Origin: Thysanoteuthis rhombus
Lineage: Eukaryota > Mollusca > Cephalopoda > Oegopsida > Thysanoteuthidae
NCBI GenBank assembly: GCA_963457665.1
Contig: OY735207.1
Coordinates: 42,361,007-42,425,006 of the forward strand
Direction: 5' to 3'
Length of the DNA stretch: 64,000 nt
Part shown: positions 34,059 through 61,635 of the stretch, one piece after another
How positions within the stretch are numbered: the stretch's first letter is position 1
How the letters are laid out: each line of letters opens with the position of its first letter
Notes under the pieces: model-generated
What the model was told of the DNA's origin: nothing
Seen by the model: the letters and a program-made list of their open reading frames with translations, nothing else
The model's database searches: none
Position numbers and translations under genes: made by a program

Positions 34059-37000
34059 GGAATCTCACACCAGTTGCCTGGTGGTAACCGCTGGAGTTTG
34101 AGTGACAGCAAGTCTCCTCAAGTCTCCAGCCCTCCTCTCCTAGTACTCATAGGTCGCAGTAATTCTACGATTTACAGTTTCACACCGGTTGCCCAGTGGT
34201 TATCGTTGAAGGCTGAGTGACAATAAGTCTCCTCAGGTCTTCAGCTAACGTCTCCTCTCTCTTTCGCATATCATGACAGGGCTACGATTCGCTGCAGTAC
34301 TTATATCTCTAGCACCTTCCTCAGTATCCGTGCAGTTCCCACTAGTGCTGTGGTTTGTACGGTCTCTATCCTTCCCCTAATCCCGATCTCCTCCAGTCTC
34401 TCCCTTTGCGTTTTGGGGACAGTTCCTAGTGCGCCCATTATGACCGGTACTACCCTGGCTTTCATGTTCCACATCTTCCTTAACTCCCTTGCTAGGTCCT
34501 GGTATTTTTCCCTTTTTTCACTCTCCTTCTTTTTTACTCTATGGTCTGCAGGCACAGCAACGTCTACTATTTGGCAGGCCTTCTTTTTTTGTCTACTATT
34601 ACTAAGCCTGGTCTTCTTGCGGGGATGAGGTGGTCAGTTTGGATGTCAAAGTCCCAGAGTAGTTTGTGTTTGTCATTCTCCAAAACTGTCTCTGGCTTGT
34701 GCTGATACCACTTTTCCACATGGTCGAATCCCATTTGTTTGCTTAGTTCCCAGTGTATCATTGTTGCTACTCTATCGTGTCTATGCTTATACTCCTTCTG
34801 GGCGAGTTGACTACATTCACTAGTTATGTGGTTTACTGTCTCATCTCTTTCACCGCACATGCGGCATTTGCTGTTTGTCTGTGTTCTGTCGATTTTTGTT
34901 TTTATGTAGTTTGTCCTTATGCTTTTGTTTTGGGCTGCATGATGAGTGATTCTGTTTCTCTCTTAAGGTTCCCCTTTCGTAACCACGTCCATGATTTCTC
35001 GTCTGCTACATCTTGTATCCGTCTTTTAAACTCGCCATACAATTTTTCCCCTCCCATCTTTCTTTTCTTGCTTGTTGTACTGTTCCATTGTTTTCTACTT
35101 TATTGCTTGCTGCACTATCTCTCGCGCTCTTTATGATTTCTTTACTATTTGTTTGCACATATCTTTCTAGGACTACTTTAGCTCTCTGGACACAATCTTC
35201 TATGCTGATGAGCCCCCTGCCACTCTCTTTTCTCTTAACGTATAGTCTATCTGTATCATCTCTAGGGTGTAATGCTTTATGCATCGTCATAAGTTTCCTT
35301 GTTCGCCTATCCATTGATTGGAGCTCTTCCTTTGTCCACCCTAGGAATGGTCCTGTATACCTAACTACTGACACAGCCCAGGTGTTCATTCCTTTTATTA
35401 GATTTCTGCTGTTTAATTTGGTTTCTGATATTTTCCTTATCCTTCTGAGGTATTCTCTCTTTATTTTCTCCTTCATCTCTTCCCGTTTTATCGTGTCACA
35501 TTCAAGGACACCTAGGTATTTGTATTGGTCTTGTGCGGTCAATGCCCTAATCTTGCTATTGTTCGGGAGTTCAATTCCTTCAGTCATTGTAAGCCTTCCT
35601 TTGTGCATCACCATGATAGCACATTTTTCTATTCCAAACTCCATTCCTATGTCCTCACTATATTCCCTTACTTCGTCGAACAGAGTCTCAAGCTCTCCCT
35701 TGTTTTTTGCGAACAATTTTATATCGTCCATGTACATTAGGTGGTTGACCTTTCCTTTTGTTTTAGAGAAGTGGTATCTTTTGCTGTTTTTCAGGATTCT
35801 GTTGAGTGGTATCATTGTTAGAACAAATAATAGTGGGGACAACGAGTCTCCTTGGAAGATTCCCCTTTTTATCCCTACCTCTGCTAGTTTGTCCCCTGTG
35901 GCTGTCAAATCTACTTTCCAGTCTTCCATCGAATTACCAATGAATTTAACCACCGGTTTGCTAATTTTGAACATTCTAAGGCATTCGAGTATCCAGCTAT
36001 GTGGAATCATATCGTACGCTTTTTTGTAATCTATCCATCCCATTGCGATATTCTTTCTCCTTTTCCTCACTTCTCTTAAGATCATCTGGTCTATATACAG
36101 TAAATCGTTTGCCCCTTTGGTTCCTATCCTACACCCTTTCTGTTCTTCTGGTAGTAGTCCCCTTCTATCCATTGACGTGTATATTCTCTCTGCTATTTGC
36201 CCGGTCAGGATTTTCCACATAAGTGGTAAGCACGTGATTGGTCTATAGTTGCTTGCTATGTTCCCCTTTTCTAGGTCTTTTTGGATGAGGGTGGTTCTGC
36301 CTTTAGTCATCCATTCTGGTGCCTTACCTTCGTTTAGACAATTTTGGAGTAGGTGGGTGAGTCTGCCGTGTAACGTGGTGAATTTTTTGAACCAATACCC
36401 ATGGATCCCGTCGTGACCCGGTGCTTTCCAGTTGGCGACTTTCCTAAGAGTATGTTTCAATGTGGTTTCATTCAGTACTATTGGTTCTCCCTTGTCTATA
36501 TCCTCTAGTTCTTTTCTCATGTTTCCTAACCATTGCGGTGTTACGTTGTGTTTTTTGGGTGCCCCCATATGCTATTCCAATAGTTCTTGGCCTCTGTGGC
36601 ATCTGGTTTCATGTCCTGCCTTTTTTCCCCATTTAAATCTTGGTAAAACTTCTTCTCATTGTTTTGGAATGTGCAGTTTTGTGTGTATTGGGCCGTTCTT
36701 AGTCTGTATCTTTTCAGTCTTGCCTCTTTGGCTAGTCTTTTCTGGTGTAACTCTTCGACTACAGTTGCGATGCCTTTTTGTGTTACCTCGTATTTGTTCC
36801 AAAGTCTTACTCGTGGTCTGTCCGTGTGTGGTGTGTTTCTAAGCAGTACTTCATCTCTCTGTAGTTGGGAGATCTGCCTTTGTAATCTTCTCTCCCTCAT
36901 GGGTTTCTCTTCCCTATTATTGCTCGGGGTCCTATCTTGTGTTGTGAAGCTTTGTGCTACCATTTTCGCCCCAGCGTAAATTAAGTTGTTGAGTTCTAGG

Positions 37001-37114
37001 AGGGTGTTCGTTTCTATGTGCTGTAAGAGGCAGTTGACCTGTTCGGTCACTTCTCCGACTTTCTTTCTGTCTTTGTCTCTTAGGGAGGGGAGTGTTATTT
37101 TCTCTCCTCGCTTG
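34059..37114 (-). pseudogene. R4/Dong-like LINE with restriction-like endonuclease, copy A
   Basis: Best-preserved copy in the window. The N-terminal frame (36541-37114) has basic, helical sequence such as HQKRLAKEARLKRYRLRT. A single-base shift near 36555 leads into a 520-codon frame (36568-35006). That frame has WKAPGHDGIHGYWFKK (residues 47-62), NYRPITCLPLMWKILT (107-122), motif A WIDYKKAYD (178-186), motif B GIFQGDSLSPLLF (236-248) and motif C YMDD (279-282), all intact. After more frameshifts comes the zinc motif CX2CX8HX4C (CRMCGERDETVNH... at about 34860). The restriction-like endonuclease block follows, where RRPDLVIVDKK of other copies reads RRPGLVIVDKK, so a catalytic Asp is lost. 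The order (RT, CCHC, restriction-like endonuclease) is that of R2/R4-type LINEs, and the RT text most resembles R4/Dong. The stop is at about 34301, with a 3' UTR of about 240 bp. The copy is 5'-truncated at an (AAT)n tract. Confidence 0.85.
34066..34246 (-). promoter_or_regulatory. Duplicated structured 3' UTR modules, copy A
   Basis: In transcript sense (minus), module 1 (34246-34181) and module 2 (34132-34066) share one fold. It has a 7-bp stem (GCTGAAG or GCTGGAG), a 2x1 internal loop, a 5-bp stem (CTGAG or TTGAG) with a 14-base loop, a 6-base linker, and a 6-bp hairpin with GCAA loop. In copy A, module 1 has one mismatch in the outer stem (CTTCAAC). The role is inferred as the RNA landmark for reverse transcription, by analogy with R2 3' UTR recognition. 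Confidence 0.6.
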
Positions 37115-37183
37115 ATTATTATTATTATTATTATTATTATTATTATTATTATTATTATTATTATTATTATTATTATTATTATT
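37115..37183. repeat. (ATT)n tract joining copies A and B
   Basis: About 69 bases of pure ATT. It is the 3' tail of copy B and at the same time the 5' flank of copy A. Confidence 0.95.
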
Positions 37184-59878: not shown

Positions 59879-60008
59879 AATCATCATCATCATCATCATC
59901 ATCATCATCATCATCATCATCATCATCATCATCAACAACAACAACAACAACAACAACAACAACAACAACAACAATAACAAGAACAACAATAATAATAATA
60001 ATAATATG
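59879..60008. repeat. (CAT)n, (CAA)n, (AAT)n compound tract
   Basis: About 55 bases CAT, about 42 bases CAA and then about 20 bases AAT, immediately upstream of copy H. Poly-His/poly-Gln frames are artefacts. Confidence 0.95.
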
Positions 60009-61635
60009 ATAAAAAATGTGCAATCATGGTAATGCACAAAGGAAGGCTTACAATGACTGAAGGAATCGAACTCCCGTACAACAGTGAGATCAGAGCACTG
60101 ACCGCACAAGACCGATACAAATACCTGGGCGTCCTTGAATGTGGCACGATGAAACGGGAAGAGATGAAGGAGAGAATGAAGAAAGAATACCTTGGAAAGA
60201 TAAGGAAAATATTAGAGACCAAATTAAACAGCAGAAATCTAATAAAAGGAATGAACACCTGGGCTGTATCAGTAGTTAGATACACAGGACCATTTCTAGG
60301 ATGGACAAAGGAAGAACTCCAATCAATGGACAGGCGAACAAGGAAACTTATGACAATGCATAAAGCTTTACACCCTAGAGATGACACAGATAGACTATAC
60401 GTTAAGAGAAAAGAAGGTGGCAGGGGGCTCTTCAGCATAGAGGACTGTGTCCAGAGAGCTAAAGCCGATCTAGAAAAGTATATGCAAGCAAACAGTGAAG
60501 AAATCATAAAGAGTGCACGAAACAGCGCAACAAACAACAAAGTAGAAAACAATGGAACAGTACAGCAAACAAGAAAAGAAAGATGGGAAGAGAAAAAAAA
60601 TGTATGGCGAGTTTAAAAGGCAGATACAAGATGTAGCAGATGAGAAATCATGGACGTGGTTACGAAAGGGAAACCTTAAGAGAGAAACAGAATCGCTCAT
60701 TATGGCAGCCCAAAACAAAAGCATAAGGACAAACTACATAAAAACAAAAATCGACAGAACATAGACAAACAGCAATGCTGCATGTGCGGTGAAAGAGATG
60801 AGACAGTAAACCACATAACTAGTGAATGTAGTCAACTCGCCCAGAAGGAGTATAAGCATAGACACGATAGAGTAGCAACGATGATACACTGGGAACTAAG
60901 CAAACAAATGGAATTCAACCATGTGGAAAAGTGGTATCAGTACAAACCAGAGGCAGTTTTGGAGAATGACAACCACAAACTATTCTGGGACTTTGGCATC
61001 CAAACTGACCACCTCATCCAGGCAAGAAGACCGGACTTGGTAATTGTAGACAAGAAAAGGAAGACCTGCCAAATAGTAGACGTTGCTGTACCTGCAGACC
61101 ATAGAGTAAAAAGGAGAAGAGTGAAAAACAGGAAAAATACCAGGACCTAGCAAGAGAATTGTGGAAGCTGTGGAACATGAAAGCCAGGGTAGTACCGGTC
61201 ATAGTGGGTGCACTAGGAACTGTCCCAAAAACGCAGAGGGTGAGACTGGAGGAGATCGGGATAAGGGGAAGGATTGAGACTGTACAGACCACAGCACTAC
61301 TGGGAACTGCACGGATACTGAGGAAAGTGCTAGAAATATAAGGACTGCAACGCTAACTGTCAATAGTGACCCAACAGAGGAAGGGAAATGAAAGCGGAAA
61401 CTCAAATTGTAGCACTGACATGATAGGCGAAAGAGAGAGGAGACGTTAGCCGAAGACCTGAGGAGACTTATTGTCATTCAGCCTTCAGTGATAACCACTG
61501 GGCAACCGGTGTGAAACTGTAAATCGCAGTATTACTGCGACCTATGAGTACTAGGAGAGGAGGGCTGGAGACTTGAGGAGACTTGCTGTCACTCAAACTC
61601 CAGCGGTTACCACCAGGCAACTCGTGTGAAATCCA
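60009..61635 (+). pseudogene. R4/Dong-like LINE, 5'-truncated copy H
   Basis: Begins just after motif C, at KCAIMVMHKGRLTMTEGIEL. The frame 60026-60616 runs through QDRYKYLGVLECGTMKREEM, GMNTWAVSVVRYTGPFLGWT, MDRRTRKLMTMHKALHPRDD and VQQTRKERWEE. A short frameshift leads to 60552-60764. After one stop, frame 60782-61150 has the zinc motif CX2CX8HX4C (CCMCGERDETVNH) and the endonuclease with intact RRPDLVIVDKKRKTCQIVDV. A frameshift at about 61110 precedes the last block (61159-61341, to LRKVLEI and stop). The 3' UTR runs to about 61635 and ends in AAAC/CAAC-rich sequence, not (AAT)n. It is one of the few copies with a complete zinc-endonuclease core. Confidence 0.87.
61449..61629 (+). promoter_or_regulatory. 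Structured 3' UTR modules, copy H
   Basis: Module 1 at 61449-61515 has one mismatch in the outer stem (GCCGAAG/CTTCAGT) and an intact CACTGG-GCAA-CCGGTG hairpin. Module 2 at 61563-61629 has a perfect outer stem. A perfect CGCAGTATTACTGCG palindrome lies between them. Confidence 0.6.

Follow-up and report, generated by a model that had tools for sequence, protein, structure and literature searches.

Two related RNA modules at the 3′ ends of an R4/Dong-like LINE

We analysed a window of 64,000 nucleotides from the cephalopod Thysanoteuthis rhombus (contig OY735207.1, forward-strand positions 42,361,007 to 42,425,006; coordinates below are those of this window unless a locus is named). It holds several copies, designated by letters, of a long interspersed nuclear element (LINE) whose 3′ untranslated region (UTR) carries related RNA modules. 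The window lies on contig C10 of a 2.73-Gb assembly (GCA_963457665.1), and the module family is spread throughout that assembly. Upstream of copy A, the reverse transcriptase (RT) part of the open reading frame (ORF; 35006..36571, minus strand) matches PF00078 (E 3.7e-29), and its best relatives among solved structures are R2 proteins (E 1e-20). The C-terminal part (34567..34962, minus strand) holds a CCHC-like cluster and an endonuclease-like region. A CxxC...H...C motif and an RPD...D-like motif are readable in the element ORFs, and are candidate CCHC and restriction-like endonuclease motifs; the zf-RVT score of 22.2 bits is below the cut-off of 27.5. Most window copies run into (TAA)n, and the 5′ ends of three genomic copies (L003, L006 and L007) are directly preceded by (TAA)n. 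Insertion into TAA repeats, which is presumably the defining feature of the R4/Dong clade and likewise the habit of Dong, is thus seen in this LINE. Judged from its sequence, the label R4/Dong-like appears reasonable for a LINE with an R2-type RT.

The distance from the stop codon to the start of module 1 is 55, 101 and 107 nt in three window copies. An earlier note made from the letters of this DNA placed two modules at 53402-53586 and 58881-59061 and, on the minus strand, at 34246-34066. Read directly, both were found at these positions, with the predicted 7-bp stem (H1), 2x1 internal loop, 5-bp stem (H2) with a 14-base loop, 6-base linker and 6-bp hairpin (H3) with a GCAA loop. The 14-base loop exists but is not a plain loop, as a 3-bp GAC/GUC stem (H2b) closes a 5-base loop inside it. 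The modules are spaced 115 bases apart. Between them we found an additional covarying hairpin, H4 (e.g. 53478-53494), which is absent from the earlier note, and in older copies an H4-like hairpin, H0, precedes module 1. The order at the 3′ end is H0 (older copies), module 1, H4, module 2, ~12 nt and (TAA)n. The three paired differences between modules 1 and 2 noted before, in H1, H2 and H3, were correct as listed, as were copy G's change from U-G to U-A and the GCGA loop of copy B (module at 37256-37194).

Copy F, on the plus strand, has the complete fold. The bipartite hairpin of module 1 (H1 of 7 bp, 2x1 loop, H2 of 5 bp, H2b of 3 bp) occupies 53403..53443 and is followed by H3 with its GCAA loop (53450..53465), H4 (53478..53494), the bipartite hairpin of module 2 (53518..53558), the H3 of module 2 (53565..53580) and the (TAA)n tail (53592..53646). 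Both modules form 21/21 pairs (z –4.36 and –4.33). In copy G (plus strand), module 1 (58881..58943) forms 21/21 pairs, H4 lies at 58956..58972, and module 2 (58996..59058) is decayed, with 18/21 pairs. In copy A (minus strand), module 2 (34068..34130) forms 21/21 pairs, H4 lies at 34154..34170, and module 1 (34183..34245) forms 20/21. The description of these three copies as clean does not hold throughout. Five of their six modules fold well (z –3.44 to –5.25, none of 200 dinucleotide shuffles as good). In module 2 of copy G, 3 of 21 pairs are broken and shuffles are barely beaten (32/200 as good, z –0.94), and module 1 of copy A carries one C.A mismatch. All 21 pairs (H1 7, H2 5, H2b 3, H3 6) form in 6 of the 13 best window modules, i.e. 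those scoring >75 bits among 21 model hits; the rest lack 1-3. A known Rfam family was ruled out as the identity of the module: no match exceeded the gathering threshold in the window or in four further loci, and the only two hits seen were weak (E 3.7 and 4.9).

Conservation of stems and paired changes

We looked for selection by treating private (terminal) changes as largely neutral decay and shared changes as having arisen while the lineage still copied itself. A whole-domain alignment of 84 rows (57 of the 61 rows holding a module pair, plus 27 older rows) covered 48 pairs including those of H4; branch depth was taken as the smaller side of the branch, and counts are averages over 20 parsimony resolutions. 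Inherited changes fall in stem columns less often than private ones do. On branches of at least 8 leaves the ratio of stem to other changes is 25:77, against 506:571 on terminal branches (p 6e-6), and sparing is already visible at at least 2 leaves (p 0.02). The same was found in an alignment of single units (10:41 inherited versus 414:426 terminal, p 2e-5). The latter had 164 rows: 236 profile hits, obtained in the window and a set of genomic loci with overlapping loci included, were filtered for near full length and a score of at least 35, which gave 180 units, 164 of them distinct; L001 and L009 (window duplicates) and part of L013 were left out.

An older family of copies, 70-77% identical and found with the query L013:1099-1290, allowed comparison over a greater depth. 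Its consensus, built from 27 of 30 loci (L071, L086 and L087 were left out), keeps every pair and has an ACAU loop in H3 instead of GCAA. This rules out the GNRA tetraloop as a conserved feature and weakens the GNRA-receptor contact considered in the earlier note. All four subfamily-module consensuses (young and old, modules 1 and 2) form 21/21 pairs, and if the consensus differences were placed at random, the probability that no pair is lost would be 0.0005-0.023 in 11 of the 12 directed comparisons; the remaining one gives 0.11. Of the 42 stem columns, 7 distinguish young module 1 from young module 2, and their changes make up 3 complete pairs (P 0.0018). Stem changes are fewer in the remaining five consensus comparisons (P 0.028, 0.07, 0.14, 1 and 1).

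The individual pairs differ as follows. H1 pair 5 is G-C in both module 2 consensuses, G-U in old module 1 and A-U in young module 1. H2 pair 1 is C-G in both module 1 consensuses, U-G in old module 2 and U-A in young module 2. In H3, young module 1 has G-C at pair 5 and U-G at pair 4, where the other three consensuses have A-U and C-G, respectively. Single steps via G-U were reconstructed at H1 pair 5, H2 pair 1, H3 pair 5 and H4 pair 3.

In the whole-domain alignment, inherited changes keep rather than break pairing in ratios of 45:37, 32:13, 19:5 and 18:3 at at least 2, 3, 5 and 8 leaves, against 141:312 on terminal branches (p 4e-5 to 2e-7; 7e-7 at at least 8 leaves). On the tree of single units, which includes the split between modules 1 and 2, the ratio at at least 8 leaves is 7:1, a value reached by 2/300 sets of wrong partners and 0/300 sets of any columns. 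We also assembled 80 diverse units (74 of the 164, mutually >13% apart, and six window modules). Here 85.1% of cells are paired, against 28.6-38.4% with partners slid by 1-3 columns, and 45 cells carry double changes, against 26.7 ± 6.6 in shuffles (0/500 as high). RNAalifold also arrived at this fold for the 164 units and for the pair set. Overall, the evidence for selection on the module fold is moderate.

Unit number and variants of the module

The module profile gave no hits in 19 other genome stretches (47.5 kb) and none in those stretches and the window reversed. Two modules per 3′ UTR, as the earlier note had it, is the common state but not the only one. Among 108 whole clusters, 86 hold two units and 22 hold other numbers: one in 16, three in 3, four in 2 and six in 1. 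Clusters cut by a locus end were excluded and overlapping loci counted once; two of the larger clusters, L018 and L032, are counted with a fragment 22-26 nt long, and L031, with four units, consists of two 3′ UTR pairs in tandem. The numbers of candidates at first look (926, 380, 880, 4233, 444 and 240) are not true copy numbers. The six-unit case (L071:1342-2030) is a 115-bp tandem array with 90% matches, followed by an AAT array, and L086 has three regular units below LINE sequence.

The single-module form is present in 6 of 8 stretches around hits to window positions 37869-37990 (the query with 4233 first-look candidates). In four of the six (L088, L089, L090 and L092) module 1 contributes the left half and module 2 the right half of a fused module; the window copy at 37889..37951 (minus strand) has this arrangement too and carries an A.C and a C.A mismatch. 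Since one-module copies recur, a single module may suffice, and the conservation of stems in modules 1 and 2 alike suggests that each has been functional.

A second R4-like family in the window

The window also holds a second R4-like element (55691-58146), diverged, split by other repeats, and with its own short 3′ UTR and TAA tail. Its RT (55691-56521) is 35% identical to that of the first element. The 3′ end of this family, for which 35 copies were collected, folds unprompted into a long hairpin, in which a 3x1 internal loop separates a 12-bp stem from a 5-bp stem with a 5-base loop; ~15 nt further on come a 4-bp hairpin and (TAA)n. In the window this long hairpin, analogous to the module, lies at 57977..58019 and the tail at 58053..58146 (both plus strand). 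In counts on this family, one of which kept 32 of the 35 rows, 85.8% of cells pair, against 26.9-45.6% when partners are slid. The likeness in shape to one module is suggestive only, because two consecutive hairpins can arise by chance.

Proposed recognition by the reverse transcriptase and alternative explanations

On balance we lean towards reading the fold as a putative, tandemly duplicated recognition signal for the RT of this R2-type LINE. The module, i.e. the bipartite hairpin with the short hairpin, would be recognised by the element's own protein in its own RNA, and recognition would place the TAA end so that it templates target-primed reverse transcription where the genome has TAA repeats. 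A tandem duplication of the ~115-nt unit probably predates the split of the young family from the older one, and the unit is now present one to six times. RT recognition seems the most likely role because the protein is of R2 type, a stable structured RNA lies directly before the template end, and the stems are conserved. LINE sequence precedes 91 of 106 clusters (89 of 104 places), in a check that took 106 of the 108 clusters of a sample drawn by similarity and not exhaustive. We infer both RT binding and the sufficiency of one module. A more far-reaching version, which we hold to be unlikely, treats the 3′ UTR as a modular docking array: both modules would be separately selected and bind two protein copies, unit number (1-6) would tune template capture or protein pairing, and R4-like LINEs with proteins only about one-third identical would commonly end in a long and a short hairpin followed by TAA.

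Several results weigh against this reading, or against selection on pairing as such. A home-made test modelled on R-scape (G-test with product correction and a tree-based null) was run on three alignments, and in none did a pair reach significance; from one of them, the pair-row alignment, the misaligned row L031_1611 (1 of 61) had been dropped. The best E among proposed pairs was 0.085 for H1 pair 5 (21 pairs), 0.17 for H4 pair 1 (48 pairs) and 0.33 for H3 pair 5 (21 pairs). The earlier note had named such a lack of covariation as refuting a selected structure; formally it is what this home-made test gave, and we read it as a reflection of low power. Wrong partners for the same stem columns match the true keep-fraction of the whole-domain alignment in 136, 153, 99 and 61 of 300 sets at at least 2, 3, 5 and 8 leaves. 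On the unit tree they reach the true value in 191/300 (at least 3 leaves) and 48/300 (at least 5 leaves), and sets of any columns do so in 155/300 and 22/300, respectively. Most inherited changes are transitions, and a transition tends to leave one standard pair or another in place. The contrast between kept and broken pairs is therefore mostly not about pairing and is ruled out as proof of it; true pairs stand apart only on the deepest branches of one of the two alignments. In the set of 80 units, a slide of –1 likewise gives 45 double-change cells, paired cells amount to 84.4% in shuffles versus 85.1% (12/500 shuffles as high), and pairs showing a double change are not unusually many (12 versus 10.8). 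RNAalifold found no structure on the 80 diverged units, and internal branches show no preference for G-U over A.C (p 0.1-0.7).

Variants and the second family add to this side. The fused one-module copies carry the H1 A.C mismatch in 4/4 and the H2 C.A mismatch in 3/4, and a deletion that cuts H2 to 3 bp is present in 18 of 61 pair rows, where it is over-represented by one query that carried it. The second family lacks compensatory changes (2 double-change cells versus 5.7 by shuffle), and its keep:break contrast, counted on 34 rows without the misplaced row L107, is weak (14:11 versus 39:83, p 0.02 at at least 2 leaves; p 0.41 at at least 3). Finally, no partner short interspersed nuclear element (SINE) with a module tail was seen in the similarity-drawn sample: the last 130 nt before the 15 clusters that lack LINE sequence upstream, compared by eye, share no common head.

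Taken at face value, the lack of a significant pair and the performance of wrong partners would suit an explanation without selection on pairing, in which a conserved or simply duplicated sequence forms hairpins by chance and the paired changes are inherited transitions that happened to stay complementary. The earlier note had itself feared transition-driven differences, and in part rightly: every paired difference is a transition, and mismatched copies recur. Pairing is nevertheless preserved in the consensuses. Three complete pairs among seven changed columns, the low probability that random placement keeps all 21 pairs in 11 of 12 comparisons, the sparing of stem columns and the folding z-scores all argue against chance hairpins, and we regard this explanation as improbable. 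What stands of the claim of a selected RNA structure is the conservation of the stems, the intact consensuses and the young-module comparison. That pairing itself, rather than sequence, is under selection is only partly shown; the partner-specific evidence is thin and rests on a handful of deep double changes.

The conservation of stems is also silent about the binding partner, and the fold might be selected for another RNA step, such as 3′-end protection, export, translation, or packaging by a host protein. An RNA element that protects the tail of a long terminal repeat retrotransposon is indeed known, the ENE of Evade (excerpts of PMC12501189). Recognition by the RT agrees better with where the fold lies, right beside the template end, with a protein of R2 type and with the similar single fold of the second R4-like family, and we give such other steps a low probability, similar to that of chance hairpins. 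Much less probable still is an action of the hairpins as DNA or as antisense RNA, for instance as a recombination site or an origin of small RNAs. Folding of the antisense strand is about equally good, and better in 2 of 6 sequences. The consensus wobbles, however, are G-U in the sense strand and would be A.C in the antisense, although the branch contrast of G-U and A.C is not significant. A comparison of models with structure and with sequence only (95.9 versus 79.9 bits for the intact modules at 53.5 kb, 27.2 versus 41.6 for the decayed one at 56.6 kb) was not used.

Relation to known LINEs

R2 proteins, the nearest solved relatives of the element RT, bind structured 3′ UTR RNA to start target-primed reverse transcription (excerpts of PMC12503042 and PMC4176376). 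In R2 (R2Bm and avian R2) there is one 3′ domain, a stem-loop or pseudoknot, and a 28S target (excerpts of PMC12503042), whereas here the module is present 1-6 times beside (TAA)n.

The stringent LINEs UnaL2 and ZfL2 have an APE-type endonuclease and a single small stem-loop. Such LINEs require a 3′ stem-loop tail bound by their own protein, and in UnaL2, ZfL2-1 and ZfL2-2 a 3′-terminal stem-loop is recognised by the cognate LINE protein (excerpts of PMC4176376), as it putatively is here. Unlike the element described here, the stringent zebrafish LINEs belong to the L2 clade (excerpts of PMC4176376). Partner SINEs are known for LINEs of the stringent type, and none was seen for this LINE in the similarity-drawn sample.

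Among cephalopods, Dong-R4 elements are expanded in three coleoids, with lower copy numbers in Architeuthis (excerpts of PMC8967140), which makes the identity of the host relevant, and 1129 recent insertions are reported in Octopus vulgaris (excerpts of PMC13282606). Like them, the element described here is an R4-like LINE, and it lies in TAA repeats. The excerpts of these two papers do not mention 3′ UTR structure or duplicated modules, and a word search of PMC9115989 for '3 utr', 'stem-loop' and 'secondary structure' returned nothing. We found no description of this fold in the searched literature, most subscription journals being outside its scope. As far as we found, a two-hairpin module repeated 1-6 times in an R4-like LINE is new; structured LINE 3′ ends were already known.

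Detailed knowledge of how LINE proteins choose their RNA exists for few elements only. The module is a defined, compact RNA from an abundant cephalopod LINE family, and the variants found in nature (unit numbers of one, two, three and six, fusions with mismatches, the older loop) make the question of recognition directly testable. The analysis also illustrates what dead copies can and cannot do as neutral controls when a fold is examined: conservation of stems is visible at once, and evidence for specific partners is thin and needs wrong-partner controls.

Other copies and features

The remaining copies in the window show various degrees of decay. On the plus strand, copy H (modules 1 and 2, 61449..61626) forms 20/21 pairs in each module and copy E (58293..58462) forms 19/21 and 20/21; a diverged pair lies at 52961..53137 and a heavily decayed one at 56598..56754. 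On the minus strand, module 2 of copy B, with the GCGA loop (37194..37256), forms 21/21 pairs, and module 1 (37301-37357) has lost the inner hairpin. Module 1 of copy C (38165..38227) forms 21/21 pairs, and its module 2 (~38065-38114) is truncated.

Seven 3′ ends of one LINE lie within 28 kb (window 34000-61700), against none in 47.5 kb elsewhere. The (TAA)n tail of each copy may serve as target for the next insertion, which would let clusters such as this one grow. L003 and L007 share an identical start point, right after a TAA array and directly before the H1 stem of module 1.

Mitochondrial COX1 matches, five full and one partial, were found in the assembly on contigs C198 and C514, and the protein is cephalopod-looking. 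C514 holds two COX1 copies 13.4 kb apart; a duplicated COX1 is characteristic of oegopsid squid. The four matches on C198 have spacings alternating between 7.2 and 13.4 kb, probably an assembly concatemer.

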